Virus record (IMG/VR): IMGVR_UViG_3300043313_000921 | Span: 1-28,629 of that record | Source of the DNA: a virus | Length of the DNA stretch: 28,629 nt | Reading direction: 5' to 3' (one strand) | In this document: positions 1,731 through 28,595 of the stretch, piece after piece | Layout: the number at the start of each line of letters is the position of its first letter | How positions within the stretch are numbered: position 1 is the first letter of the stretch | Translations under genes and position numbers: made by a program | The notes under the pieces: generated by a model | Database searches by the model: none | What the model saw: the letters and a program-made list of their open reading frames with translations, nothing else | Told to the model about the DNA's origin: nothing

Positions 1731-1786
1731 AGCGGCATCATGCGTTAAGCATTACATTCAGAGGGGAGTTAACCACGACCACGGCA

Positions 1787-1827
1787 CTCCGGCACCCGCA
1801 CCAACGGGCGTCGGAGGTTTTCGTTTT
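1787..1827 (+). terminator. Intrinsic terminator ending the small-gene operon
   Basis: CTCCGGC (1787-1793) pairs with GTCGGAG (1810-1816), with one G-U pair. After an A/C mismatch, CCCG (1795-1798) pairs with CGGG (1805-1808) around a six-base loop. The tail is G then TTTTCGTTTT (1818-1827). A ribosome-binding site CAGGAGG follows at once (1828-1834). The arrangement closely resembles the terminator at 28220-28266. Confidence 0.8.
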
Positions 1828-1841
1828 CAGGAGGTTTTGCT

Positions 1842-1877
1842 GTGCTGCCCAATATCACGCCCTCACATGTCAGGTGA
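1842..1877 (+). CDS. Possible 11-codon leader ORF
   Basis: A strong AGGAGG (1829-1834) lies seven bases before a GTG at 1842. That GTG opens only 11 codons (MLPNITPSHVR) and stops at TGA 1875-1877. The last codons and stop, AGGTGA, are also the ribosome-binding site for the ATG at 1885. It may be a leader peptide coupling ribosome entry to the next gene, or the strong site may be a relic. Support is position only. Confidence 0.25.
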   Translation: MLPNITPSHVR

Positions 1878-1884
1878 TCTCATA

Positions 1885-2166
1885 ATGGCTGCGGGCCCCG
1901 GCGCCGAGCTGCCGCCCGACACGGCTCGGACGACGGACCCGCGCGGGGATTCTGGGGCCGTTAGTCGGGGTGATTTTGTGCGCTACATCAACGGCGATGG
2001 CGTCGAACGCTTGGCGCAAGTGCATACGAAGGGTCCGGCATCGCTTGATTCGGCGCTCGACCTCGTCGTGGTGACGTGGGATGCGCTCGGCGCGCCCATC
2101 GCGCGGATCATCTCGGCGACCGCGAGCGCGCGACAGGCGGGCGGTCCGCCCTACTGGACACCATGA
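1885..2166 (+). CDS. Hypothetical protein, 93 aa
   Basis: The frame is open upstream to 1693, across the terminator, so early starts are unlikely. The ATG at 1885 has AGGTGA (1872-1877) seven bases before it and is preferred over the ATG at 1867. After a Pro/Gly/Ala-rich N-terminus, residues about 27-75 (GDFVRYINGDGVERLAQVHT, then LDLVVVTWDALG) look like a small beta-barrel of the kind seen in short phage structural or accessory proteins. It is the first gene after the terminator and overlaps the next gene by ATGA. Confidence 0.55.
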   Translation: MAAGPGAELPPDTARTTDPRGDSGAVSRGDFVRYINGDGVERLAQVHTKGPASLDSALDLVVVTWDALGAPIARIISATASARQAGGPPYWTP

Positions 2167-3428
2167 AGCCTCACGACCCTGATGCGCTCGCGGTCGTGCT
2201 GGGGACGGCTGCACAGATGGCTCGGCGGTTGCCACCGGGATGGGATGGGGATCGTCTAACGTCTTGGCTCATCGCGCCGAACGGCGTCAAGCTGGGCCGC
2301 ATGCTCTGGGGACGCGGGCTCGCCCTCGAGTTCGATCTCTCGGCGGCGCGCATCTATCGCCCCGTCCCGCACGTGTGGGACCATTCGCATTTGGGGCGGT
2401 TGGCCGAAGGATTCTGGTCACTGCGGCAGGGCCTCGTTCTCCGGCCTCGATCTGACTCGTGGTATCGCACGTTTCCCGGCAAGCTGTTCGATCCTGACCG
2501 CGCGGCCGTGGCGGCGGCCGATCACGTGCCGCTGAGTCCGAGCGTCGCCGCGGCGAAGCGGCTGGCGGCGGCGATCACCACCTACGACGGCATCATCAAC
2601 GCGCGCGCCAACGGCAAGGCGAACGACGCGACGATGTCCAAGCTCACGCTCACGACCGTGGCGCAGGCATTCTCGTCGCTCTGGCGGCAAGGCGGCGATC
2701 CGGCCGCGGGGACCTACACGAACATTCCGGGCGGCGCGGTGCACACCCGCGCGACGACGGGCGCGTGGCGCTCGCTCATCAACCCGAGCGGCGCGGATAA
2801 GAAGTACCTCCTCACGCTCGGCTTCAACTCGACCTCGGCGATCGACTGGGCGATCTTCGTCGATCTGCTTGTCGCCTGCGGCAACATCAACGCCGCGATC
2901 GCGACGAGCCAGACGATCAACTCCGTCGCGCAGACCCGGCAGTACGGCTCGACGCTCGGCGCTGGCGTCCTCGCCACGTTCGAGATCACCACCGCCCTCG
3001 GGACGGGGACGGGCACGTTCTCGCTCACGAGCTATACCGACCAGGATGGGAACACGGCGAACGTCTCCGACACGGGCACCTCCGTGGCGTCCGCGATCAC
3101 GGGCCGTCTCATCCCGACCGGCGGCAATGGTCTCATCCCATGGCTTGGGACGGCCACGGGTGACTTCGGTGTCCGGTCGGTCGAGACGTTTGCCTTCTCC
3201 GCCGCCCATACGGCTGGGGTCATTGCCCTGAATCTGGCGTTCCCGCTGGCGTATCTGCCCGGGATCGCGGCGAACATCTACGTCGAGCGCGACAGCACGG
3301 TGCAGATCGACGGCCTCACGGAGCTGGACACCGATGGTACGGACATCGGCGCCCTGACGTGGTACTTGCAGACCAATAGCACGACGACGGGAAGCTTCCG
3401 GGCGTTCGCGCGGTCCTGTATGGGCTAA
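2163..3428 (+). CDS. Putative virion structural protein, 421 aa
   Basis: The ATG at 2163 overlaps the previous stop (ATGA); the frame runs further upstream but without a better start. Two parts can be seen. Residues 1 to about 125 are Trp/Arg-rich and unlike the rest. From about residue 130 the protein becomes Thr/Ser/Ala/Gly-rich and beta-structured, with internal patterns (SKLTLTTVAQAFSSLWRQGG, then AFPLAYLPGIAANIYVERDS) that recall a phage structural family of about 300-400 aa found near tail or fibre genes. It begins the module that ends with the tailspike-like protein. The structural role is inferred from composition and position. Confidence 0.6.
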   Translation: MKPHDPDALAVVLGTAAQMARRLPPGWDGDRLTSWLIAPNGVKLGRMLWGRGLALEFDLSAARIYRPVPHVWDHSHLGRLAEGFWSLRQGLVLRPRSDSWYRTFPGKLFDPDRAAVAAADHVPLSPSVAAAKRLAAAITTYDGIINARANGKANDATMSKLTLTTVAQAFSSLWRQGGDPAAGTYTNIPGGAVHTRATTGAWRSLINPSGADKKYLLTLGFNSTSAIDWAIFVDLLVACGNINAAIATSQTINSVAQTRQYGSTLGAGVLATFEITTALGTGTGTFSLTSYTDQDGNTANVSDTGTSVASAITGRLIPTGGNGLIPWLGTATGDFGVRSVETFAFSAAHTAGVIALNLAFPLAYLPGIAANIYVERDSTVQIDGLTELDTDGTDIGALTWYLQTNSTTTGSFRAFARSCMG

Positions 3429-4590: not shown

Positions 4591-5532
4591 ATGGCCCGGT
4601 TCGGTCGCAGCCAACCCCATGCGCCCATCTTCCTACGGGCGCCGCTCGTTGCCGTGGCAGTCGTTGCGGCGACGGTCTCGCCGATCCATGTTTTTCAAGC
4701 CGATGCCTATCGCCCGCCGCCGACCCACGTCTATTACCTGCGGGCACCGCTCAGGGTTGTTCCCGCCGATCAGATTCATGTCATTAGCCTTGCCGTGCTC
4801 CGGGTTCAGCATCCGAGCCGCGACGCGGATGTCCTCTTCCTGCGTACACCCGCGGCGCCTGCTGCAGTCGTTACGACGCCAGCGCCGCAGATCCACATCG
4901 TCACGGCGCTCGAGCGCGCCCCCACCCATGGGACCGTCGTCGTTGTTCGACCGAGTCGGGCGTCGTTCGTCCCGGATCGGCTGGCCCCGCAGTTCCACAT
5001 CATTCTGCAACAGCATCGGACGCCCCCGACACACGTGGTGGTGTTGCGGAACGCGCTGGTGCCGGTGGTGGTGGCCGCCAAGCCAGCGCCGCAGATCCAT
5101 GTCATCAGTCTTGCGACCGAGCGGCTGCCCGTCATCCGACGCGCCGCAATCGTGTACCTCCGGCCGAGCCGCACGTCGCTCGTCCCGACCCGGCTACCCG
5201 TGCAGGTGCACGTCGTCAGCCGCGTGGGCGATCGGATCCGGGTCCGGCGTGAGCCGATGGTGGTGGTCCTGCATGGCGGCCAGCTTTTCGTGGCGTTCAC
5301 CGAGCTCGGACGTCCACCCTACGGCGTTGTGCTCGTTGGTGCGCCAAGCGCGAGTGTATCCGCCGTCCCAGGCGCCGAGCTCGGCCAATCTGGGCTCAAC
5401 GTGTCAGTGAGCGGAGCCTATGGTGTAGCTGTCTCGGGCGGGAGCGGTGCGGAGCTGGATCGCGTGTTCGGAGGCTTTTTCTTCGACGGGGTGCTCGCCT
5501 TTGATGGCCTGCACTTTTTCATCGATCCATGA
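4591..5532 (+). CDS. Repeat protein of about six 35-residue units, 313 aa
   Basis: Residues about 10-225 are built from six degenerate units of roughly 35 residues. Each unit has a strand ending in LR or VR (residues 14-16, 49-51, 83-85, 118-120, 151-153, 189-191) and a strand with I/V/F-H-V/I (32-33, 62-63, 101-102, 135-136, 169-170, 206-207). Pro-rich turns separate the strands. The C-terminal part is Gly/Ser-rich and ends in aromatic residues (VFGGFFFDG, LHFFIDP). No signal peptide. It directly precedes and overlaps the tailspike-like gene (ATGA at 5529), so a fibre, spike-adapter or chaperone role is likely, though this is inference. I recall similar Pro/Val/Arg repeats in other phages but no known function. 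Confidence 0.6.
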   Translation: MARFGRSQPHAPIFLRAPLVAVAVVAATVSPIHVFQADAYRPPPTHVYYLRAPLRVVPADQIHVISLAVLRVQHPSRDADVLFLRTPAAPAAVVTTPAPQIHIVTALERAPTHGTVVVVRPSRASFVPDRLAPQFHIILQQHRTPPTHVVVLRNALVPVVVAAKPAPQIHVISLATERLPVIRRAAIVYLRPSRTSLVPTRLPVQVHVVSRVGDRIRVRREPMVVVLHGGQLFVAFTELGRPPYGVVLVGAPSASVSAVPGAELGQSGLNVSVSGAYGVAVSGGSGAELDRVFGGFFFDGVLAFDGLHFFIDP

Positions 5533-7672: not shown

Positions 7673-8007
7673 GTGATTCGCATTTCCAGATCAAACAGGG
7701 TGCGCAGAATCCGGCGCTCGAGGCCACGCTGACGAAGGGCGATGGCAGCGCGCAGGACTTGAGCGGTGGCACGGTGACGTTCAGCATGAAGCGCAAGCGC
7801 ACGGGCGCCGTGAAGGTGAATGCGGCACCGGTGGTGATCGTGAGCGCAGTTGCTGGCATGGTGAAATACCTATGGGCGGGTGTGGACAGCGATACGCCAG
7901 GCGTCTACTACGGGCAGTTCACCGTCACGGGGCTCTCGGGCGGGCCGGCGGTGTTCCCAACGTCCGGCTACATCTATGTGACCGTTGTGCCGAAGGCGAG
8001 CAGCTGA
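7669..8007 (+). CDS. Ig-like BppU/DUF2479-type phage protein, 112 aa
   Basis: The GTG at 7669 has GGAG six bases upstream and overlaps the previous stop. The pattern FQIKQGAQNPALEATLTKGD (residues 6-25), then SGGTVTFSMKRKRTG, then a final strand region (GYIYVTVVP) is typical of the N-terminal Ig-like domain found in phage baseplate upper proteins and in small stand-alone virion proteins. Here it is only the single domain. It probably decorates or joins a virion part. It overlaps the HNH gene by one base. Confidence 0.65.
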   Translation: MSDSHFQIKQGAQNPALEATLTKGDGSAQDLSGGTVTFSMKRKRTGAVKVNAAPVVIVSAVAGMVKYLWAGVDSDTPGVYYGQFTVTGLSGGPAVFPTSGYIYVTVVPKASS

Positions 8008-8456
8008 TGGCGTGCGCGCCACTGAAGACCTGTTCGGCGAGTCCGTACTGCCCGAATCCTTCGACGGGCGGGCCTTGTCCCGAGCATCAACGTGCGCGCG
8101 AGCGTCAGCGAGGATCGAGCACTGCGCGAGGTCTTGGTGCTCAACAGCGGGAATGGCGTAAGGACATTCTCTCGCGAGATCCCATTTGCCGTGGATGTGG
8201 CGCGGTGCCGAGCACCCATGCGGATCATGTGATCCCCCGGAAGCCTAGTGCTGATGACTGGAGCTATGAGAATGGACAAGGACTCTGCGGCGCGCCCGGA
8301 CCGATCGGCCCCCGCGGTGCGTGTCACTCGTTCAAGACGGCGATGGAGCGGCGCGATCTGTTCTTCGGTATCCGCCTGCGTGAAGAGGGAGCCAAGACAG
8401 GCGCGCCGGCACCGCAGGGATGGCGCTACCTGAAAGCGTTCGGAGGAGAGCAATGA
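8007..8456 (+). CDS. HNH endonuclease, packaging-associated, 149 aa
   Basis: The ATG at 8007 shares a base with the previous stop (TGATG); an in-frame extension back to 7872 would only duplicate the neighbour. The N-terminus has Cys/His pairs (Cys9, Cys15, Cys24, His27), then an Arg-rich helix. The HNH core shows Cys61-x2-Cys64, Asp73-His74 in HADHVIPR, Asn89, and Cys106-His107 in CHSFKT. An unusual GAPGPIGPRGA insert separates Cys94 from Cys106. HNH enzymes beside the terminase help cleave DNA during packaging in HK97-like phages. Here it lies two genes ahead of the small terminase. Confident on family; the packaging role is by context. Confidence 0.85.
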   Translation: MACAPLKTCSASPYCPNPSTGGPCPEHQRARERQRGSSTARGLGAQQREWRKDILSRDPICRGCGAVPSTHADHVIPRKPSADDWSYENGQGLCGAPGPIGPRGACHSFKTAMERRDLFFGIRLREEGAKTGAPAPQGWRYLKAFGGEQ

Positions 8457-9076: not shown

Positions 9077-9179
9077 GGGGGGGGCATCAAAACTCTGGCG
9101 CCCTGCGCCCAAGACCACCAGAAGCCTTCGCGCGCACGTCCACGGAATTGGCGTTCCTGAGCATATGGGGATTTCGTGA
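9069..9179 (+). CDS. Small coupled ORF, 36 aa, with a G9 tract
   Basis: This ORF fills the gap between the connector and small terminase. Its ATG at 9069 lies eight bases before the end of the connector stop, and its TGA at 9177-9179 overlaps the terminase GTG (GTGA at 9176). The peptide begins MSRGGASKLWRPAPKTTRSL and ends GVPEHMGIS; it is very basic. Codons 3-6 lie on a run of nine G (9076-9084), a site prone to slippage or to sequencing error. It could simply be a ribosome-carrying spacer. Unknown function. Confidence 0.45.
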   Translation: MSRGGASKLWRPAPKTTRSLRAHVHGIGVPEHMGIS

Positions 9180-9568
9180 GAGGTCGTAAACGCACACCGA
9201 CAAAGATCCTCGAGATCCGCGGCGCGTTTCGGCGCAATCCGCAGCGGAAAAAGGATCGCGAGGGCGAGCCGGAGCCGACATTGGGCGTCGGGAAGCCTCC
9301 GTCTTACCTCGGTCCCGAAGCGCGCGCGCGCTGGCGCGAGTTGGCGACGCTTGGGCAGATATGGCTCACGCAAGCGGAACGTCCGAAGCTCGAGGAAACG
9401 GCCAAGCTGTGGGCGAAATCGCGCCGTAACGAGCTAACGACGGCAGATGGTAAGCGCTACGACAAACTGCTGGGCGATCTCGGGTTCGATCCCGTCGCGC
9501 GCACACGCATCAAAACGCCGTCGCAATCGAAGCCTGATGCGAAGCGGAAGCGGTTTTTCGGTACATGA
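9176..9568 (+). CDS. terS: Terminase small subunit, P27 type, 130 aa
   Basis: The GTG at 9176 has GGGGA shortly upstream and overlaps the previous stop. The N-terminus RGRKRTPTKILEIRGAFRRN followed by the PPSYLGPEARARWRELA segment (about residues 41-57) is the hallmark of the P27 family of small terminases. The C-terminus is basic. It recognises the packaging site and feeds DNA to the large subunit. It overlaps the large-subunit gene by ATGA at 9565, the usual arrangement. Confidence 0.88.
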   Translation: MRGRKRTPTKILEIRGAFRRNPQRKKDREGEPEPTLGVGKPPSYLGPEARARWRELATLGQIWLTQAERPKLEETAKLWAKSRRNELTTADGKRYDKLLGDLGFDPVARTRIKTPSQSKPDAKRKRFFGT

Positions 9569-11352
9569 CTGCCACGGCGACGCGATCGCGGCGATCCGGG
9601 AAGCCGAAACGGCCTGCCGGCGGGTGGTGGGGTGATGGTCCCGCACCATGGGATCGTTGGCCTGGCACCAGCATCCGGATCCAGGCGACATGGTGTGAGG
9701 AGCGCAGTCGCTGGGAGTCGCATGGCGGGAAGTACTTCTATGACACGAAGACGGCCGACAAGGCGGTAGACTTTTTCCCCGCCTATTTGACGCACCATAT
9801 CGGGGAATTCGCGCACAAAGCCTTCGACTTGATGGATTATCAAGCACTGCTGCTCACGCGTCCGATCTTCGGCTGGAAAAGGGCCGGTGACGGCATGCGT
9901 CGATTTCGTAAAGTGTTCGCCTTCATTCCGAAGGGAGGCGGCAAGAGCCCATGGGCATCCGGCACGGGTATCTATCTCGCACTCTGCGACAACGAGCCAG
10001 GGGCCGAGATCTACGCGGTCGCGGCCGATACCAAACAGGCGCGGATCGTTCACGACAACGCCAAGATCATGGTTGAGGAATCCCGGGAGCTGCTCGAGAT
10101 GTGCGAGGTGCGGCGCGACTCGATCTACCACCCGGCGAGTCGCTCGGCCTACAGCGTGCTCTCCTCGGATGCGTCGACGAAACACGGATTCCGCCCGCAC
10201 GGCGTGCTGTTCGACGAGTTCCACGCCCAGCCGAACCGTGATCTGTACGAGGCGCTGAAGAAGTCGCTCGTGAAGCGACGCCAGCCGCTGTTGCTGATGA
10301 TCACGCATGCCGGCGACGATGACGAAGGCATCTGCTATGAGGAGTACGAGTACGCGAAAGGCGTGCTGAGCGGCAAAATCCCGGACGAATCGTGCCTGCC
10401 GGTGATCTTCGAGATGACGCCGGAGGATGACTGGAAGGATCCGAAGGTCTGGGCGCGCGTGAACCCCGGCTACGGTATCACCGTCCAGGTCGACGGCATC
10501 GCGGCGGAGTGCGAGGAAGCCAAGGTTGAGCCGCGGAAACTGAACGATTTCCTGCGATTCCACGGGAATCGATGGGTTAATCAGGCCTCGGCATGGATTC
10601 CGATCGACTGGTGGGATGCCTGCCGCGGTGATTTCACGGATGCGGAGCTCCTCCAGTTGCCGGTATTCCCCGGCTTTGACATGGCTCAGAAGCACGATCT
10701 GGCGTCGCTGGTGTTGACGTTCCCCCGGCGACTTGAGGAGCCGGCGCTCGACGTCGAAGTGGTTGGTGGGGACGCTCTGCCCGAAAAACGGGTCCTGTCG
10801 CTCAATTTTGCGATCACGTGCGTGCCATTCTTCTGGATTCCCGAAGATACGATGCGCGAGCACGAAAAGATGGATGGCGTACCCTATGAACAGTGGGTGC
10901 GCGCGGGGCTCGTGACGGCGACCCCGGGGCCGATGATCGACGAAAATCGTATCCTGCGCGATATCCGCGGCCCGATTGCCGAGCGCTTCCCCCGGATTCG
11001 GGAAGCCACGTTCAAGTATGACCCAGCCTTCGCCACGTCCATCGCGATCAATCTGCTGGCGGCCGGGTTTCGCTGCGTCGAGCTGTTACAGAACTACAAA
11101 TATCTCTCCGAGCCGAGCATGGTTTTCGAGTCGCTGATCCGCGCGAAGCGCGTGCGCCATGACGGCCAGCGGATTTTGCGCTGGAACATGGAAAACGTAT
11201 CCGTGAAACGGGACGATGCGGGCCGGATCCGCCCCGTGAAGCCCAAACGCCAGTCGAAGCGCATCGATGGCACCGTGGCGACGATCTTTGGCATCGACGG
11301 CGTGATCCGCGAGAGTTGGGGCGACGGCGGGCTCCTGATGGAATTCGCATGA
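9565..11352 (+). CDS. terL: Terminase large subunit, 595 aa
   Basis: The start overlaps the small-subunit stop (ATGA). The ATPase domain shows a Walker A-like motif, PKGGGKS (residues 122-128), and a Walker B, GVLFDEFH, with Asp217-Glu218. The C-terminal RNase H-like nuclease has candidate acids at Asp372 (GFDMAQKHDLASL), Asp486 (FKYDPAF) and Asp568 (RIDGTVA). Length and motif order fit the HK97/phiC31-type large terminases (YmfN-like, Terminase_1/6 region). It cuts concatemeric DNA and pumps it through the portal. No frameshift or missing core motif is seen. Confidence 0.93.
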   Translation: MTATATRSRRSGKPKRPAGGWWGDGPAPWDRWPGTSIRIQATWCEERSRWESHGGKYFYDTKTADKAVDFFPAYLTHHIGEFAHKAFDLMDYQALLLTRPIFGWKRAGDGMRRFRKVFAFIPKGGGKSPWASGTGIYLALCDNEPGAEIYAVAADTKQARIVHDNAKIMVEESRELLEMCEVRRDSIYHPASRSAYSVLSSDASTKHGFRPHGVLFDEFHAQPNRDLYEALKKSLVKRRQPLLLMITHAGDDDEGICYEEYEYAKGVLSGKIPDESCLPVIFEMTPEDDWKDPKVWARVNPGYGITVQVDGIAAECEEAKVEPRKLNDFLRFHGNRWVNQASAWIPIDWWDACRGDFTDAELLQLPVFPGFDMAQKHDLASLVLTFPRRLEEPALDVEVVGGDALPEKRVLSLNFAITCVPFFWIPEDTMREHEKMDGVPYEQWVRAGLVTATPGPMIDENRILRDIRGPIAERFPRIREATFKYDPAFATSIAINLLAAGFRCVELLQNYKYLSEPSMVFESLIRAKRVRHDGQRILRWNMENVSVKRDDAGRIRPVKPKRQSKRIDGTVATIFGIDGVIRESWGDGGLLMEFA

Positions 11353-11552: not shown

Positions 11553-13175
11553 GTGGGCATTATCTCGACGCTCGAGCGTTCCGGTTTGCGCGCTGATCAG
11601 GGCTCGCTCCCCTTCGATGATCCGCGGCTCTGGACCCCGTACAACTCCTGGGATGCGAGCAATGCGGCCGGTTATCCAATCACCCGTGAGACGGTGATGC
11701 GGATCTCGACCGTGTTCGCTTGTGTGAGCCTGAAGGCGGAAACGATCGGCACGCTTCCGTGTCACCTCTATCGCCGGCTAGACAATGGCGGTCGCGAGCG
11801 GGCGAAGGAGCACCGCTGTTACCGCACCGCGCGCCAAACTCCGAACGGACAGGATACGGCGATCGACTTTTTTACCCGGGGCGAAAGTCGCGTCAACCTC
11901 AGCGGGCTCGCATTGGCGGAAATCCATACCCGTCGCGATCGCGTCGAACTAGTGCCGTACAAGACGAGTGACATCACAAAAACCGAGCTCCTCGATGGCA
12001 ACCGACTGCGCTGGGAGGTCATCGATCCAGTCACCCGCCAGTCCAAGATCCTGTTGCAGGATGAGGTGCTCTATGTGCGCGACCTCATGCAGGATGGCTT
12101 CGCAGCCGTCGGGCGCGCGGTGGTTGCCCAAGAAGCAATCGCCGTTGCGGCCGCGGCTGAGGCCTTCGTCGGGGGCTTTTTCCGCAATGACGCGACCGGA
12201 CGCCTCGCGCTGAGCTTGCCGACGAACCCGGACGAGAAGACGAAGGCCGCCTATCGCCAGATGGTGAACGACAATTACGCCGGCTGGCGTAACCGCTCCA
12301 AGACCATGTTCCTCTGGGGCGGCATGACGGCGACAGAGCTCGGCAAGCATGACGACAACGGCTTCATTGTCGATCCCCGGAACTACCAAGTCGCCGACAT
12401 TGCTCGCTTCTTCGGTCGGATTCCGCTGTTTATGATCGGCCTCGAGGAGAAGTCCACGACGTGGGGCACGGGCATCGAGCAGCAGACACAAGCGTGGATC
12501 AATTACGGGATGCTACCGAGTATCGTGCGCTGGGAACAGGCACTCAATCGGGATCTGCTGCAGCCCGAGGAGCAAGAGGAGTATTTCTTCGAGTTCAACC
12601 TCGACGGATTGCTGCGTGGGGACTCGATGCAGCGCGCCCAGGTGAACGAGATCAAGCGGCGGAACGGAGTGATCAACCCGGACGAGTGGCGCCTCAGCGA
12701 CAACATGAATCCCCGCAAGGATGGCGGCGGGGAGGAGTATCTCGATACGCCGACCGGTGCGGCCCCGAACGCGGGGACAGGACCGAAGGAGCCGGACCCG
12801 AAGCCGAAACCTCAGGAACAGGCTCGGATCATCCCGGCGCCGCTGTTGGCGGATGCGGTGCACCGGATCGCGAGCCGGGAGATTGATGATGTCGGCCGTC
12901 GAGCGGCGCGCGCCACGGATACGGTGAAGTGGGCGGCCTGGGTGACGAAGTACTACGCCGCCCATCGCGACTACGTCGTGAAGGTCCTGGCACCGATCGG
13001 CGAGGCGTTTGGCTTTGAGCACTGGGTGCTTGAGGAGGCGGCCGGGTCGATTCAGCGGACAGCCGAGGGCCTGATCGCGGCCGCGGTACCTGACTTCCTG
13101 GCGCGTCGGCGGGACGAGATTACGGAAATCCTCGAGGAGACTTTCACAGCCGGCGCGGCCGCGCGACAGGAGTAG
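11553..13175 (+). CDS. Portal protein, HK97 family, 540 aa
   Basis: The GTG at 11553 follows the previous stop directly. Family marks are VMRISTVFACVSLKAETIGT (about residues 48-67), the DFF and NLSGLALAEI segment, VPYKTSDIT, a DEVLYVRDL strand, and the central FGRIPLFMIGLEEKSTTWGT region (about 288-307) of the clip/stem part. A Pro/Lys linker (about residues 410-425) leads to a helical C-terminal extension of over 100 residues. The dodecameric portal forms the vertex for packaging and tail attachment. It is followed by the protease and capsid genes, as in HK97. Confidence 0.93.
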   Translation: MGIISTLERSGLRADQGSLPFDDPRLWTPYNSWDASNAAGYPITRETVMRISTVFACVSLKAETIGTLPCHLYRRLDNGGRERAKEHRCYRTARQTPNGQDTAIDFFTRGESRVNLSGLALAEIHTRRDRVELVPYKTSDITKTELLDGNRLRWEVIDPVTRQSKILLQDEVLYVRDLMQDGFAAVGRAVVAQEAIAVAAAAEAFVGGFFRNDATGRLALSLPTNPDEKTKAAYRQMVNDNYAGWRNRSKTMFLWGGMTATELGKHDDNGFIVDPRNYQVADIARFFGRIPLFMIGLEEKSTTWGTGIEQQTQAWINYGMLPSIVRWEQALNRDLLQPEEQEEYFFEFNLDGLLRGDSMQRAQVNEIKRRNGVINPDEWRLSDNMNPRKDGGGEEYLDTPTGAAPNAGTGPKEPDPKPKPQEQARIIPAPLLADAVHRIASREIDDVGRRAARATDTVKWAAWVTKYYAAHRDYVVKVLAPIGEAFGFEHWVLEEAAGSIQRTAEGLIAAAVPDFLARRRDEITEILEETFTAGAAARQE

Positions 13176-13178
13176 TCC

Positions 13179-14084
13179 ATGGGAAGCCAGATCGTTCAGC
13201 TGGTCCGCGCGCTCTCTCAACCCGTCCTCCTCGAGCACGACACACTGGTCAAGCTCGCGCAGATCTTCCAGCGCAAGCTCGGCGGCGAAGCGTTCGATGG
13301 CGCCGAGCTGCATGCCGAGCTCGGCGCCGCGACGCCAGCGCAACGGGGCAAAGCGGCTACGCCGACCACGGTGGCGGTGATCCCGATTTACGGAATGATC
13401 GCGCAGCACCCCCAGAGTCTGGGCACATCGACCGACCAGATCGGTGCGAAGCTCGCCGCGGCGCTCAGCAACCCGCAGGTCGATGCCATCCTCCTCGACA
13501 TCGACTCGCCGGGTGGCACGGTGGACGGCATTCCTGAGCTCGGGATGAAGATCGCGGCCGCCCGCGGCATCAAGCCGATCACCGCATTCGCGAACAGCTT
13601 CATCGCGTCGGCGGCGTACTGGCTCGCCTCCCAGGCCGACGAGGTCGTCGTGACTCCCTCTGGCCAGGTCGGCTCGATCGGCGTGTACATGCTGCACGAG
13701 GATTGGTCGCAGAAGCTGGCGAGCGAAGGCATCAAGGTCCGCGCGATCAGCGCCGGGAAGTACAAGCTCGAGGGCGCGAAGTGGGAGCCCCTCGATCCCG
13801 AGTTCGAGGCGTTCATTCAGCAGCGGGTCGACGAGGTCTACGGCTGGTTCGTGAAGGCGGTGGCCGCGGGCCGGCGCGACACGCAGACCAACGTGCGCAA
13901 CGGCTATGGCGAGGGCCGCATGCTTGGCGCCACACAGTCGGTGAAAGCGAATCTTGCCGATCGCGTCGGCGGCTTCGACGACGCCCTGGCGGGACTCGCC
14001 AAACGGGTCACGCTGCGTACGGGGCCCCGAGCTGATATCCTTCGCCGACGGTTAGAACTTGACAGCCGGACGGAGATCTCCTAA
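13179..14084 (+). CDS. Capsid maturation protease, S49 (SppA-like), 301 aa
   Basis: The ATG at 13179 follows ACAGGAG. After a 65-residue N-terminal segment come the S49 marks: VIPIYGMIAQ (about 68-76), LLDIDSPGGTVDG (105-117, oxyanion region), the nucleophile candidate Ser144 in FIASAAYW, the SGQVGSIGVYM segment (161-171), and Lys194/Lys196 in SAGKYKLEG as the general-base candidate. The length is usual for phage S49 proteases that cleave the capsid scaffold or delta domain. Lying between portal and capsid genes supports that role. Confidence 0.9.
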   Translation: MGSQIVQLVRALSQPVLLEHDTLVKLAQIFQRKLGGEAFDGAELHAELGAATPAQRGKAATPTTVAVIPIYGMIAQHPQSLGTSTDQIGAKLAAALSNPQVDAILLDIDSPGGTVDGIPELGMKIAAARGIKPITAFANSFIASAAYWLASQADEVVVTPSGQVGSIGVYMLHEDWSQKLASEGIKVRAISAGKYKLEGAKWEPLDPEFEAFIQQRVDEVYGWFVKAVAAGRRDTQTNVRNGYGEGRMLGATQSVKANLADRVGGFDDALAGLAKRVTLRTGPRADILRRRLELDSRTEIS

Positions 14085-14287
14085 CGTAAGGTCTGACGCC
14101 CGAGGTGGACGCGGCAGCGTCCCTGACGGCACCAGCAGTAAAAATCGACGTCGGTCATCCGTTACGCGGCAGCGGGCGGGGACTTAGCGACTAGAGCACA
14201 CACTCTGGCGCGGTGTCCTTGCCCGCTTTCGTCTTTCCCCACAATCACGCGGTTGCGATCAAGGCCCGCCCAACACGGAGCGGACGC
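14085..14287 (+). promoter_or_regulatory. 203-base gap with hairpin before the capsid gene
   Basis: This is the longest non-coding gap inside the late operon. It holds a perfect hairpin, GGACGC (14107-14112) and GCGTCC (14117-14122) around GGCA, with no following T-run. I see no convincing -35/-10 pair. A ribosome-binding GGAG at 14277-14280 precedes the capsid ATG by seven bases. The gap may hold a promoter or RNA-processing site that raises capsid expression; this is inference from position. Confidence 0.35.
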
Positions 14288-15604
14288 ATGACGCGACTGG
14301 AGAAGTACCAGGCCCAGCACGGCGAGACGGTGGTGGCCATGAAAGCCATCCTCGAAGCGGCTGAGGCCACAAACGGGATCCTGACGGCCGAGCAGGACAA
14401 GGACTACAAGCGGCTCGACCTCGTCCGGAAGGACCTCGAAGCGTCGATCGACCGCGAGAAGTCCGTGATGGACGCCGAGCGAAAAGCGACTGCTGTCGCG
14501 ACCGTCCCCGCTCAGCCAGGCGCCGAGCTCGTCGTCACGGGTGGACATGAGCGCGAAGCCGATCGCCCCTGGCTCACCTTCGGCGAGCAAATGCAGGCCA
14601 TTCGGGCGGCCTACTCGCCGGGCATGACCTTCGACAAACGCCTCTTCGCCGCTGCCAGCGGCATGAACCAGATGGTGCCGTCGGAGGGCGGATTCGCGGT
14701 GGCACCGCAGTTCGTTACCACCATCTGGGATGGCCTGAACGCACAAGCCGATAATCTGATCGGCGAGACTGATCAGTACTCCGTTGAGGGCGAGTCGCTG
14801 ACCTTCAACGCCAACGCCGAAACGTCTCGCGTGAACGGCTCGCGCTACGGCGGGATCCAGGGCTACTGGATCAACGAAGCGGACCAGATCACGAAGTCCA
14901 AGCCCAAGCTCCGCCAGATCAAGATCGAGCCGAAAGAGCTAGCCGTGCTCGTCTACTGCACGGACAAGGCGCTGCAAAATGCGGCCGCGCTCGAGCAGTT
15001 CCTCTCGCGGGCCGCCAAGGACGAGCTGGGCTTCCTGATCGGCGACGCGATCGTGAACGGTATCGGGGGTGGCCAGCCGAAAGGCCTGATGGGATCGGGC
15101 TCGAAGGTTGTCGTCAACAAGGAAACTTCCCAGGCGAGCGGCACCTTCCTCAAGGCCAACGCGAACAAGATGTGGGCGCGCATGCACCCCCGGCTCCGCG
15201 GGGGCGCAGTCTGGCTGATGAATGTGGATGTGGAGCCCACGCTCGACGATTTCTTCACCTCCATCAAGAACGTGGCGGGGTCTGAGAACGTCGGTGGCCT
15301 CGCATCCATGATCTACAACGCCGAGCGAAACACGCTGAAGGGGCGCCCCATCCGGTTCGTCGAGTACTGCCAGTCGCTCACCACCGAGGGCGACGTCATT
15401 CTCGTGAACTTGCAGACGTACCTCACGGGTGTGCGATCGGCCGGCCTGAAGTACGCCACGTCGATCCACGTCCGGTTCGAGTTCGCTGAAACCGCGTTCC
15501 GCTTCATGCTCGCGGTCGACGGTGAGTCATGGCTCAACTCGGCGCTGACGCCGTTCAAGGGTACGAACACGTTGTCGAACATCGTCACGCTGCAGACCCG
15601 GTAA
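14288..15604 (+). CDS. Major capsid protein, HK97 family, 438 aa
   Basis: The frame extends back to a GTG at 14213, but the ATG at 14288 has GGAG seven bases upstream and is chosen. Residues 1 to about 85 are charged and helical (delta/scaffold domain likely removed by the S49 protease), then an Ala/Val/Pro linker. The shell domain carries the usual HK97 marks: FAAASGMNQMVPSEGGFAVA (about residues 119-138), the WINEADQITKSKPKLRQI segment of the E-loop/P-domain region, ELAVLVYCTDKALQNAA, NGIGGGQPKGL and ETAFRFMLAVDG. It is followed by a probable capsid-associated protein. Confidence 0.93.
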   Translation: MTRLEKYQAQHGETVVAMKAILEAAEATNGILTAEQDKDYKRLDLVRKDLEASIDREKSVMDAERKATAVATVPAQPGAELVVTGGHEREADRPWLTFGEQMQAIRAAYSPGMTFDKRLFAAASGMNQMVPSEGGFAVAPQFVTTIWDGLNAQADNLIGETDQYSVEGESLTFNANAETSRVNGSRYGGIQGYWINEADQITKSKPKLRQIKIEPKELAVLVYCTDKALQNAAALEQFLSRAAKDELGFLIGDAIVNGIGGGQPKGLMGSGSKVVVNKETSQASGTFLKANANKMWARMHPRLRGGAVWLMNVDVEPTLDDFFTSIKNVAGSENVGGLASMIYNAERNTLKGRPIRFVEYCQSLTTEGDVILVNLQTYLTGVRSAGLKYATSIHVRFEFAETAFRFMLAVDGESWLNSALTPFKGTNTLSNIVTLQTR

Positions 15605-16180: not shown

Positions 16181-16198
16181 CTCGCATAAGAGGACTTG

Positions 16199-16513
16199 AT
16201 GATAGCAGCGGGTAGTCTCAACCATCTCGTTTCGATCACCACTCCGACGGAGACCGCTGGGGATGCGCAGGTCACCTACAACCTCGTCGCCAAGGTTTGG
16301 GCTTCGCGCAAGGACCTCGGCGGGACGGATAGATCCGGCCTAGTTGCGGAGGGCGCGACCGTCTTCCGGATCCGGTATCGCGCGGATTTCACCGTCAAGA
16401 TGTGCGTTGAGGAGATCGGTCGGCGCTGGGAGATCGATTCCATCTCCGATCCTGATGGAGCGCGGCAGATACTTGACCTCGTGACGCACGAGATTGTGAG
16501 CCTGGCGGCCTGA
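16199..16513 (+). CDS. Head closure / head-tail adaptor protein, 104 aa
   Basis: A TTG at 16196 gives one extra residue; the ATG at 16199, shortly after AGAGGA, is the better start. The pattern AAGSLNHLVSITTPTE (residues 3-18), then VWASRKDLGGTD, then FRIRYRADFT and a final RQILDLVTHEIV fits the SPP1 gp16 / HK97 gp7-like head-tail joining family. It seals the connector after packaging. It is followed in order by the gp10-like and tail terminator-position genes, the standard order. Confidence 0.85.
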   Translation: MIAAGSLNHLVSITTPTETAGDAQVTYNLVAKVWASRKDLGGTDRSGLVAEGATVFRIRYRADFTVKMCVEEIGRRWEIDSISDPDGARQILDLVTHEIVSLAA

Positions 16514-17013
16514 TGCCGAACCTTGAGACGGTCGTCATTGAGATCCCGCCCGAGCTCGAGCGGATGAACGGGAAAGAGGTCTGGCAGGAGATCCAGCGCG
16601 CCCTCCCGGAGGCGTTCCAGCCGCTACTCGGGGTACTCGAGGAGGGGGCGCCGGTCGGCAAGACCGGAAAGTTGCGACAGGCGGGGTTCGGCCTGCGGAT
16701 GACTGCGGTATCGGCCGGCCTGATCAATGGCGTCAAGGTCCTCGTCGGCTCTGGCGACCCCGTGGCGCACCTCGTGGCCGAGGGGCACGAGATCGTCCCG
16801 CGCGGGCCGGGCCGCGACTCCATCGACCAGGCGCCGCGGGGCAAGAAGCGGCAGCGCCGGGCGGAGCTGCGGGCGAGCCTCAAGGCGCGGCGAGAGGCCG
16901 GCGCGATCGGCTTCGTTCCCGGCAATCCATGGGTTGAGGACGCCTTTGAGTCCCAGCGGGCCGAGATCATCGCGAGCCTCGAGGCGCAGCTGCGGAGGAC
17001 ATTCGGCCAGTGA
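16513..17013 (+). CDS. HK97 gp10-like tail-completion protein, 166 aa
   Basis: The ATG at 16513 shares a base with the previous stop (TGATG). The protein has an N-terminal helical part, then APVGKTGKLRQAGFGLRM (about residues 46-63) and VAHLVAEGHEIVPRG (about 84-98), which match the TG-x-L and Y/HLVE-G-T positions of the gp10 family. A Lys/Arg-rich segment (about 109-128) and a PWVEDAF motif follow. It acts at the head-tail interface or in tail completion. Position between head closure and tail terminator supports this. Confidence 0.8.
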   Translation: MPNLETVVIEIPPELERMNGKEVWQEIQRALPEAFQPLLGVLEEGAPVGKTGKLRQAGFGLRMTAVSAGLINGVKVLVGSGDPVAHLVAEGHEIVPRGPGRDSIDQAPRGKKRQRRAELRASLKARREAGAIGFVPGNPWVEDAFESQRAEIIASLEAQLRRTFGQ

Positions 17014-19469: not shown

Positions 19470-20149
19470 CGACCTGTATCTGCGGGGCGGTGGCGATCGC
19501 ACGCGGACTCTGCCGACGGCACTACCAAGCCGCCTGGAAGGCCGATGCCTTGGATGTTCACGCCCGCCTGCATTGGGGGCGTGGGACTCGCCCGTGCTCG
19601 GTCGAGCACTGCAGGAAGTCGATCTACGGGGGCGCGCGCGGTCTCTGTCCGATGCACTACCGCCGGTGGCAGCGCGAGCAGGAACGTGGAACGGGGTTGT
19701 ATGGCTGCTCGGATTGCGGGCACCGATTCGCGACACTGAAGGCGGCTAGCATTCATCGCAGCCGAATGCACGGTTACGGCGGTGATCGTGACGCCGCGCT
19801 CCAGCGTTATCTGGAAGCGCACCGCAAGCAGATCATTGCGCGCGCGAACGCATGGAAGGCATCACATCGTGAGCGTCACAGGGAGCTTTGCCGCTTCAAG
19901 GAAAATCGCCGTAGGGCAAGGAAAATCAGAGCCCAAGGGACGGCATCCGCCGCCCAATTGGATGCGCGGATCGCGTTCTACGGCTGGCGCTGCTGGATCT
20001 GTGGTGCTCCCTGGGAACACCTAGACCATGTTATTCCCCTAGCGCGCGGCGGTAGCAACTGGCCTAGCAATTTTCGGCCAGCCTGCGCTTCCTGCAATCG
20101 TCACAAGCACACAACCATGCCACATCTGGTGGCGAGGGTGCGACCGTAG
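19466..20149 (+). CDS. HNH endonuclease with three zinc-finger-like modules, 227 aa
   Basis: The usual start would be the GTG at 19490, but that removes Cys4 and Cys6 of the first module. The CTG at 19466 keeps them, lies seven bases after GAGGG (19454-19458), and overlaps the previous stop as CTGA, so I take it as the start. In order: Cys4, Cys6, Cys16, His19; Cys44, Cys49, Cys61, His64 (both of the ARGLC-x2-HY type); a C2H2 finger (Cys81, Cys84, His97, His102); then the HNH core with Cys176, Cys179, HLDHVIPLARGGSN (Asp187, His188), Asn202 and Cys207-Cys210-Asn211. It is probably a free-standing homing endonuclease lodged in the tail operon. Confidence 0.8.
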   Translation: MTTCICGAVAIARGLCRRHYQAAWKADALDVHARLHWGRGTRPCSVEHCRKSIYGGARGLCPMHYRRWQREQERGTGLYGCSDCGHRFATLKAASIHRSRMHGYGGDRDAALQRYLEAHRKQIIARANAWKASHRERHRELCRFKENRRRARKIRAQGTASAAQLDARIAFYGWRCWICGAPWEHLDHVIPLARGGSNWPSNFRPACASCNRHKHTTMPHLVARVRP

Positions 20150-22369: not shown

Positions 22370-23626
22370 ATGGAGGTGATGGAGCGAAATATTCTCTTGC
22401 GTGTCGGCGGTCGGACCCTGCAACGCTACGGAGTTCTCGCGGTAGGCAGCGTGGGAATCGGTCGCACGGAAGAAATCAAGGAGACGTTCACCCGGGCCGA
22501 CGCGACGACGTGCGCCACGTATATCGACCGCGACGGCATCATCCGACTGGCCGCAGCGAACGTGCCGCGCATCGAGTGGGTGGATCTCGACGGCGACGGG
22601 ATTCGGGAAACGCCGGGGATTCTCTTGGAGGGAATCCGCCAGAATCTCCTCGATAACAGCGATTACGAAGCCGACATCGTGGGATCGGGCTCCTATGCCG
22701 GTTCGACGGTTGTCCGTGACAATGCCCATGCGCTAAGGGGATCGTGGGCGCTCAAGTGCACGACCGTCCTCAACACGTTCTCGGGAATCGTCATCACCAC
22801 ACGCAGCGGCGCCAAGCCCGCTGCGTCTCCGGGCAGCGTTTATTCGGCAAGCGGCTGGGTCTTCGCGACGGGTAGCGCCATTGGGCAGGCCATGCGCGTG
22901 CAAATCGACTGGTACAATGGCGCTGCGTACATCTCGACCAGTGCCGGGACGCCAGTCACCCTCGTTGCCGGATGGAATCGCCTGCTGGTGGCGGGCACGG
23001 CCCCGGGCAGCACGACCGGCGTGGTCGTGGACATCATCACCAACACCGCCGCGCAGCCCGTCTTTGACGTGTGGGTCGATGTGCCGCAATTCGAACTCGG
23101 CGCGTTCGCCAGCAGTGCGATCCCGACGCTGACCGTACCGCTCACCCGGGCAGCGGACAGCCTCACCCTACCGTTCAACTTCGGGCCAATGGATCTCACC
23201 GCGCTAGCACGGATGGCGCGGCCGATCCATGCCGACGCCTCTGGCGACCTGGGCTCTGAACCCCAGGTCTATCGAATCTCGACCACGTCACCCGTGATCC
23301 GCGGCAACTTTCAACAGGCTACACGCCTACTGCGATCGTTCATCGACTCCACTGGGACCGATGTGCAGCAGACAACTGGCATCCCGGCTGGTGCAGAATT
23401 GAAGATGTGTGTGCAATATCGGCTGCTCACGACGGGCGGGTTAACCAAACTCGACGTAGGCAGTGGTTTCACGGCTGAGAGTTCGGCGGCGGGTCCCATT
23501 GCCAGCTTCGGTATACAGACACTTGAAGTGGGTGGCACTACTACGGTCTCGCTCTACGGCGTCCTCTTGGACCTGCTGGTCATCCGAGATCTCCACACGC
23601 TCGCCGAAGCGCTGGCCGTCCCATGA
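22370..23626 (+). CDS. Tail protein with a carbohydrate-binding-like domain, 418 aa
   Basis: The ATG at 22370 directly follows the previous stop, with GAAGGAGG upstream; ATG 22379 is an alternative. Residues about 40-85 have TRADATTCATYIDRDGIIRL and GILLEGIRQNLL, a motif common to phage virion and tail-associated proteins. Residues about 90-255 look like a CBM4/9-type beta-sandwich (NLLDNSDYEADIV, ASGWVFATG, VPQFELGAFASS). The C-terminal 150 residues form another beta-rich part. It probably sits at the tail tip or fibre and may bind glycans. Confidence 0.65.
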   Translation: MEVMERNILLRVGGRTLQRYGVLAVGSVGIGRTEEIKETFTRADATTCATYIDRDGIIRLAAANVPRIEWVDLDGDGIRETPGILLEGIRQNLLDNSDYEADIVGSGSYAGSTVVRDNAHALRGSWALKCTTVLNTFSGIVITTRSGAKPAASPGSVYSASGWVFATGSAIGQAMRVQIDWYNGAAYISTSAGTPVTLVAGWNRLLVAGTAPGSTTGVVVDIITNTAAQPVFDVWVDVPQFELGAFASSAIPTLTVPLTRAADSLTLPFNFGPMDLTALARMARPIHADASGDLGSEPQVYRISTTSPVIRGNFQQATRLLRSFIDSTGTDVQQTTGIPAGAELKMCVQYRLLTTGGLTKLDVGSGFTAESSAAGPIASFGIQTLEVGGTTTVSLYGVLLDLLVIRDLHTLAEALAVP

Positions 23627-27459: not shown

Positions 27460-27960
27460 TTACCGTGCGGAGCTCTCGCTCATGAATGGTGCCCGATTGC
27501 GCAAGTAAGTCGCGATGACTGCCCGCCGGCCGCGTGTCGCCGCCTTGATCTTGTGAGAAGCGAGCGCTTCCCATGTATCGGCGAAGTCATCAGCAAAATG
27601 TTCGAGGTCGTCCACTGTCGGCCCGGCTAGCGAGTCTCGGTCAACCTGATGAAACCATTCCGAGAACAGCCCCATGTCGGTGAACTGCAACAGGTGGCCG
27701 AACTCATGCGCCAAGGTATGCCGCGGCCGCGGCGCCATCGGTGACAATGTCATCCCCCCCGTCGCAACATTGAATTCGCCGATGGCCGTTACGAGAGCGG
27801 AACCCGGGGCGACTGGTCGCTCATATACTAGCGATGTCGGCGAGGTACCGACCGCTATCATGAGGCTGTCGACGAGGCCCTTGTACTGCACGGGTAGCGT
27901 CTGGCCCTCGATCATGGCGGGGAGGGCGAGCAGGGCGAGTAGAACGATGGTGTAGCGCAT
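27460..27960 (-). CDS. Exported HEFGH zinc metallopeptidase, 166 aa
   Basis: It reads right to left, convergent with the tail-tip gene 12 bases away. The frame is open upstream to 28149, but the ATG at 27960 has GAGGAAA upstream and shares a base with the stop of the 44-aa gene. A signal peptide is visible: MRY, then TIVLLALLALPAMI, then IEGQT near residues 16-21. The zinc motif HEFGH is at residues 85-89 in RHTLAHEFGHLLQF, after GEFNVATGGMTLSP. A later DLEHFADDFAD (118-128) may give the third ligand (Glu120), as in M78/ImmA-like enzymes. Substrate unknown. Probably an accessory (moron) gene acting outside the cytoplasm. Confidence 0.75.
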   Translation of the reverse strand: MRYTIVLLALLALPAMIEGQTLPVQYKGLVDSLMIAVGTSPTSLVYERPVAPGSALVTAIGEFNVATGGMTLSPMAPRPRHTLAHEFGHLLQFTDMGLFSEWFHQVDRDSLAGPTVDDLEHFADDFADTWEALASHKIKAATRGRRAVIATYLRNRAPFMSESSAR

Positions 27961-28094
27961 CACGGTTTCCTCGTCTTGGCCCAACGAGCGAGGGACGCCT
28001 TCTTCGCAATTGCTGACCGCTGTTCGGGCGTCAACTTTGCATGACGCAACTTTGCCAGTCGAGCGGCGTCCGGATTTTTGATGCGTTTGACCAT
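27960..28094 (-). CDS. Small basic protein, LTPEQRSAIAKKA-type, 44 aa
   Basis: The ATG is at 28094 and the TGA at 27960-27962 shares its last base with the metallopeptidase ATG, so the two are translated together. The protein is strongly basic: MVKRIKNPDAARLAKLRHAK, then LTPEQRSAIAKKASLARW and AKTRKP. The LTPE-x-R-x-x-IA-x-KA-x-x-ARW pattern recurs in short prokaryotic proteins, some beside DNA-binding or toxin-antitoxin-like genes (memory only). It could be a regulator of, or partner to, the downstream peptidase. No signal peptide, so it acts in the cytoplasm. Confidence 0.65.
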   Translation of the reverse strand: MVKRIKNPDAARLAKLRHAKLTPEQRSAIAKKASLARWAKTRKP

Positions 28095-28132: not shown

Positions 28133-28219
28133 AAGGAAGCCCGAACCATAGGAACTATTGCCTAAGCCACGGGAAAACCCCACATTAGGTCTGAGGACTG
28201 GGGATAACTCATAACCACG

Positions 28220-28266
28220 AGCCCCCCGTTTCGCCCGCACTGGGCGCGATGGGGGCTTTTCGTTTT
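28220..28266 (+). terminator. Intrinsic terminator before the membrane-protein gene
   Basis: AGCCCCC (28220-28226) pairs with GGGGGCT (28251-28257), enclosing an inner stem CGCCC (28232-28236) with GGGCG (28242-28246). The tail is TTTTCGTTTT (28257-28266). The ribosome-binding AGGAGG (28269-28274) follows at once and serves the ATG at 28281. TAACCACGA (28212-28220) precedes the stem, as at 1770-1778. It is placed to end late + strand transcription reading through the convergent cassette, or to attenuate the next gene. Confidence 0.8.
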
Positions 28267-28280
28267 CCAGGAGGACCCGC

Positions 28281-28595
28281 ATGGCGTTGCTCAGACTCTT
28301 AGCGCGTGTCCCTGATGTCTGGAAGGCGGCGGGGATCATGGCCGCGCTGTTCGTCGGCGGGTTAAGTGCTGGGGCACTGCTCTCGGGCTGGTCGGAGATT
28401 CCCCAAAAGGTGTCCGTGTTGGAAGTGAAGGCCATTGAAAGCGATGCTGATCGCCAGCAGATGGAGAATGAGCTCAAGGGCGTACGAGACCTGATTCGGC
28501 AGCAGCTCTGTCTGACTGTGGCGGAGAAGCAACGGACGCCCTGGCAAAACTGCGTGGATCCGAATGACTTCACCGGGTCACGGCGGACGCCATAA
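28281..28595 (+). CDS. Small membrane protein, possible lysis gene, 104 aa
   Basis: AGGAGG (28269-28274) lies six bases before the ATG. A basic N-terminus is followed by one membrane helix (AAGIMAALFVGGLSAGALLS, about residues 16-35), then a charged helical, coiled-coil-like part (about 43-76) and a short tail with Cys77 and Cys91. This topology occurs in holin-associated and spanin-like proteins and in other small phage membrane proteins. The place after the tail genes favours the lysis region, but no endolysin is in the window to confirm it. Confidence 0.6.
   Translation: MALLRLLARVPDVWKAAGIMAALFVGGLSAGALLSGWSEIPQKVSVLEVKAIESDADRQQMENELKGVRDLIRQQLCLTVAEKQRTPWQNCVDPNDFTGSRRTP

Follow-up and report, generated by a model that had tools for sequence, protein, structure and literature searches.

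A pair of probable terminators fused to ribosome-binding sites at gene-block borders of a tailed phage

Introduction

Do two similar hairpin modules lying far apart in one phage genome stop transcription, start translation, or share a regulatory signal? The question is raised by the window analysed here, a whole stretch of 28,629 bases from an IMG/VR virus record (64.7% GC), in which TAACCACGA, a GC-rich hairpin, TTTTCGTTTTC and AGGAGG follow one another in that order both at 1770-1834 (site 1) and at 28212-28274 (site 2). The original prediction saw matched terminator plus ribosome-binding-site modules that bracket the structural genes, with a possible antitermination or processing signal in their conserved flanks. 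The source of the window is a tailed phage, and its terminase, portal, protease, head, connector and tail genes have profile matches (Table 1). Two genes similar to HNH endonucleases lie within the structural region (7872-8456 and 19490-20149). A relative of the terminase with 62% identity is held by a Gemmatimonadetes MAG, a weak hint from sequence similarity that this may be the host group. Our preferred reading, to which we assign a probability of about 0.75, takes each module for an intrinsic (Rho-independent) terminator joined to the Shine-Dalgarno sequence (SD) of the gene that opens the next rightward unit.

Table 1. Features of the two modules and of the genes around and between them
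Feature	Position	Strand	Basis
Exact 9-mer TAACCACGA, 5' of site 1 hairpin	1770-1778	+	sequence match
Site 1 stem-loop, terminator-like, CTCCGGCACCCG / CGGGCGTCGGAG, loop 6	1787-1816	+	folding
Site 1 U-tract, exact TTTTCGTTTTC	1818-1828	+	sequence match
Site 1 Shine-Dalgarno AGGAGG	1829-1834	+	sequence
Possible 11-aa leader ORF, GTG start 7 nt past SD	1842-1877	+	sequence; identical in L003
First sizeable ORF past site 1, 93 aa, no family match	1885-2166	+	
Terminase small subunit	9176-9568		profile match
Terminase large subunit	9565-11352		profile match
Portal	11553-13175		profile match
Protease	13179-14084		profile match
Major head protein	14213-15604		profile match
Connector proteins	16196-17013		profile match
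Tail protein	22370-23626		profile match
ORF with signal-like N-terminus and HEFGH zinc-metalloprotease-like motif	27460-27960	-	by eye
44-aa basic ORF, overlaps start of metalloprotease-like ORF	27960-28094	-	by eye
Exact 9-mer TAACCACGA, 5' of site 2 hairpin	28212-28220	+	sequence match
Site 2 stem-loop, terminator-like, unbranched	28221-28256	+	folding
Site 2 U-tract, exact TTTTCGTTTTC	28257-28267	+	sequence match
Site 2 Shine-Dalgarno AGGAGG	28269-28274	+	sequence
First gene past site 2, 104-aa protein, apparent N-terminal membrane segment	28281-28595	+	by eye

Results

Folding gave -23.7 kcal/mol for the site 1 hairpin (1770-1828; z -3.36) and -29.0 kcal/mol for that of site 2 (28212-28267; z -4.52), and 0/200 shuffles matched either value. 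When the flanks were included up to the start codon, z was -1.65 at site 1 (11/200 shuffles as good) and -2.54 at site 2 (3/200). Each hairpin is a single stem with small internal loops; the branching that had been predicted is not seen, and the 9-mer, the 11-base tail and AGGAGG are exact at both sites as claimed. The U-tract lies directly 3' of the stem at both sites, has T at 8 of its first 10 bases and is interrupted by CG. Both sites therefore have a stable GC-rich hairpin with a U-tract directly behind the stem, and judged on sequence they are most likely intrinsic terminators. The reverse strands also fold (z -2.22 at site 1, -3.26 at site 2), but the reverse-strand bases behind the stem, TCGTGGTTA, form no T-tract, and we therefore read the sites as one-way. 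At both sites the SD begins 0-1 nt past the 11-base tail, with the start codon 6-7 nt past the SD. AGGAGG also precedes other gene starts in this phage (17512, 22356).

The complete arrangement of strong hairpin, U-tract, SD and start occurs twice on the plus strand of the window, never on the minus strand, and in none of 200 dinucleotide-shuffled windows, where terminator-like hairpins averaged 0.22 against the two modules of the real plus strand. Two detection rules applied window-wide placed hairpin, U-tract and SD together only at sites 1 and 2, and a looser scan added hairpins at 5476 (+) and 17540 (-), whose tails are different. These results agree with the predicted pairing of a terminator and a ribosome-binding site. 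A stock terminator scan of the window listed neither site (10 versus 7.8 in shuffles; 9 versus 7.2), in our reading because it demands an uninterrupted stem and both stems have internal loops. Rfam 15 gave no match in the window at the gathering score.

Another reading is translation control, in which the modules are structured 5' leaders with no terminator and the hairpin and its flank hide the SD in read-through RNA. At site 2 the SD is indeed largely paired for some 5' ends (mean probability unpaired 0.15-0.16 for RNAs beginning at 28205, 28212 and 28258). In matched context, however, the two SDs had accessibilities of 0.49 and 0.31, unremarkable beside the 0.04-0.66 spanned by the window's other SD-like sites, and the pairing partners of the SD are unlike between the sites. 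We hold this explanation to be highly improbable.

How far does the likeness of the two sites extend? Counting both strands of the whole record, TTTTCGTTTTC has two exact copies, which are sites 1 and 2; allowing one mismatch again returns two, and 0/100 shuffles had two. Many copies scattered in coding DNA, which the original prediction had named as one possible refutation, are thus not present in the record. The alignment of the 3' flanks is significant (equalled in 1/4000 shuffles, or 2/4000 with looser gaps), and what matches is the U-tract plus the SD, each of them functionally expected. The alignment of the 5' flanks was equalled in 420/4000 shuffles, in 844/4000 with looser gaps and in 1023/4000 random window pairs. 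ACATT and the G-rich stretch, which had been counted as conserved flank, are at chance level and hence no evidence; a common 5-mer turns up in 55,965 of 200,000 random pairs of 20-nt stretches. A common 9-mer does so in 455/200,000, in a test that was post hoc, and we take the shared TAACCACGA as modest, suggestive evidence. Part of its identity has a structural reason, since its CGA end can pair with UCG of the tail, and in the fold of 1770-1828 the ACGA end is paired with the tail. As a possible antiterminator fold, the G-rich stretch and the 5' arm could form by eye only 4-5 bp, too weak a pairing to support a claim.

The stems differ in sequence between the sites (by eye), as the original prediction had stated. 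Identical 9-mer and 11-mer flanks around unlike stems could be the trace of a terminator plus ribosome-binding-site cassette duplicated at both borders, with stems that have since diverged. We consider such a history very unlikely: the stems are unlike by eye, the 5' flanks past the 9-mer are at chance, and neither the search of the record nor the pattern scans of other viruses turned up a third copy. We read the common tail and the ACGA/UCGU base as terminator style or old common descent and not as a proven regulatory code.

A shared antitermination signal at both sites is possible. In one candidate form, a late promoter with a -10 element ending in ACATT would give a leader of ~60-75 nt ended by the hairpin, until a promoter-loaded phage antiterminator, like Q21 or AlpA, let the polymerase read on into both rightward blocks. 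This account is more specific than the terminator-SD explanation and compatible with it. The best sigma70-like -10 candidates, TACATT (1753-1758) and CACATT (28181-28186), both end in the common ACATT, AT content is higher in the stretches upstream of the sites (0.52 and 0.44) than in the window (0.35), and a rightward promoter close to site 2 is plausible given the leftward ORFs that precede it. The promoter scores are ordinary, however, with 23.9% and 18.5% of 476 window stretches scoring as high; a stock scan found no promoter at either site, the -10-like sequences are weak, and the 5' flank similarity, as noted, is not significant. Searches of PHROGs with 36 ORFs of the window and 4 of an overlapping contig, from a record that is incomplete, recognised no antiterminator. 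We regard a promoter and leader of this kind as tentative and somewhat unlikely. The signal that had been proposed to be conserved in the flanks comes down to one 9-mer, to which the scans joined no other virus, Rfam match or recognised antiterminator. An undescribed form of antitermination, in which one phage factor would recognise the paired leaders (ACATT promoter and 9-mer), carry polymerase through both hairpins and switch on the structural and 28281 blocks together, in a group of phages whose hosts may be Gemmatimonadota, seems to us distinctly improbable.

The gene map fits site 1 as the start of the structural region and fits site 2 only roughly as its end. Site 1 is adjoined upstream by small rightward ORFs (20-1730) and downstream by the structural region, as the original prediction held. 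Site 2 lies ~0.8 kb past the last structural gene (end 27447), with two leftward ORFs between, and stands at the head of a further rightward block. The larger of these leftward ORFs (27460-27960) has a DUF6055 match that is sub-threshold only. The start at site 1 is untidy: the SD may serve the short ORF at 1842, which stops 7 nt short of the ATG at 1885, or it serves the frame of that ATG through a TTG (1837) or CTG (1840) start upstream. The 104-aa protein that heads the block past site 2 has no PHROGs match and only sub-threshold Pfam matches, and in an overlapping contig the block continues with a DUF5675 protein and small ORFs. Its position, though no family match, suggests that this block may hold lysis genes. 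A small ORF past the window end (L010:6242-6475) has a sub-threshold match to a Fis-type helix-turn-helix (HTH_8) and no PHROGs match, and is a possible regulator.

We also looked for the module in other genomes. Site 1 with its surroundings and site 2 each recur unchanged in one further contig record of the same virus (L003 and L004, respectively), and scans of a viral collection, which may omit records of the window's own or very near genomes, found the module with two patterns only in contigs of this virus and no genuine copy elsewhere. The pattern TAACCACGA-N30-60-TTTTCGTTTTC matched 9 stretches, 2 of them L003 and L004; the other 7 fold weakly (-5.3 to -10.1 kcal/mol), and 5 of these 7 are one near-identical AT-rich sequence. 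The second pattern, CCACGA-N25-55-TTTTCGTT-N1-9-AGGAGG, matched 10 times, twice in the same virus, and by eye the other 8 are without a hairpin abutting a T-tract with a start codon behind it.

Relatives of the large terminase subunit comprise 27 viral loci, 2 of them the same virus, and 1 genome locus (L128, covered over 17.0 of 58.1 kb). The matched pair of modules is absent from the distant relatives examined, which are mostly fragments: apart from this virus, 18 of 25 viral contigs are shorter than 11 kb, so that most cannot show both borders. Under one rule, 3/25 (L103, L104 and L105, whose modules are identical in sequence) carry a single terminator plus SD on the minus strand with another tail, and L012, 48% identical to the ORF at 2076-3428, has none. 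Under a second rule, an SD in the pattern used accompanied 0/55 hits in G003 and G005-G008, and L128 gave no hit; near cases seen by eye number 3/55 (G006:585, with AGGGGG and ATG; G005:25709; G003:35518). Absence in relatives is therefore rule-dependent, since the second rule misses the L103 site and these three.

Among 92 strong terminator-like sites in other viral loci, 7 have SD and start directly behind the terminator (5 distinct sequences, two seen twice), and hence the arrangement occurs in other phages. Tails of the form T(4-6)CGT were present at 5 of the same 92. In the Gemmatimonadetes MAG, ACGA-N12-42-TTTTCGT had 103 matches against 39 for the backwards pattern; among the matches listed a few have clean mirrored stems and many have no stem (by eye). 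TTTTCGTTTTC has 5 sites in the MAG, none a clean terminator, L132 and L133 coming nearest by eye. A host-wide tail style is not established, given these stemless matches and the want of a clean terminator with this tail. Tallying tails over 399 kb of this MAG gave 119 hits, with too much noise to be of use.

Discussion

The order of hairpin, U-tract, SD and start codon is read from the sequence itself; from it we infer termination and any control of read-through. If the modules are terminators fused to an SD, polymerase arriving from upstream would mostly stop in the U-tract, and RNA ending at the hairpin would lack the SD and leave the downstream gene silent. Only read-through transcripts would carry the SD. 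There is no room for a promoter between tail and SD, and the downstream gene would therefore depend on read-through. The ORFs gated in this way would be those that open the structural region (1842/1885) and the block beginning at 28281, and read-through could come from partial leakiness or from a late antiterminator resembling Q21 or AlpA. Site 1 would in addition close the series of small genes upstream, and site 2 would stop rightward RNA from the structural genes that is antisense to the leftward ORFs. Should the gate be regulated, it would point to a switch for late genes in a group of phages that has been little studied, and its factor would best be sought at the paired modules. Should it be unregulated, the modules are a tidy case of phage compactness, with terminator and ribosome-binding site fused at gene-block borders.

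Several known systems resemble parts of this arrangement, and the papers listed by a literature search included such analogues and, as far as those listings show, no description of a module of this kind. Terminators of the E. coli rrnB T1 type combine a GC-rich stem, whose foot has complementary bases, with a CG-interrupted T-tract that follows at once. The modules share all of these traits and differ in that the SD of the next gene starts 0-1 nt past the tail.

In phage 21, Q21 acts at 21PR'-21tR' (PMC6606751), and in Pseudomonas, AlpA acts at two loci, alpB and PA0807, at each of which an intrinsic terminator is predicted directly ahead of the first gene (PMC7969949). As in both of these, a probable terminator here precedes the gene that opens what may be a late or lysis unit, and as for AlpA there are two loci per genome; in contrast, the promoter, binding element and antiterminator of our phage are only hypothetical. 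The Caulobacter GTA offers a likeness in that terGTA sits close to where a phage-like structural cluster begins and GafYZ carries transcription past this terminator behind the first GTA gene (PMC11150451). However, terGTA consists of three 150-bp GC-rich direct repeats behind the first gene, whereas ours is one short hairpin before it. As stated in the same paper, known factors such as Q21, lambda Q and GafZ have no mutual sequence similarity.

The SAS and ESAS elements of cluster K mycobacteriophages are a loose analogue, likewise repeated beside gene starts, and about half come with an inverted repeat (PMC3203893). Many genes carry SAS, a 13-bp sequence that is conserved, and in ESAS a variable spacer is flanked by 17-bp arms that are conserved, whereas our phage has two copies with a U-tract and stems that differ; with the tail in two copies only and unlike stems, we do not place the modules in this family. 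Set beside these systems, the fusion of a terminator to an SD at gene-block borders looks like an already known kind of phage control element.
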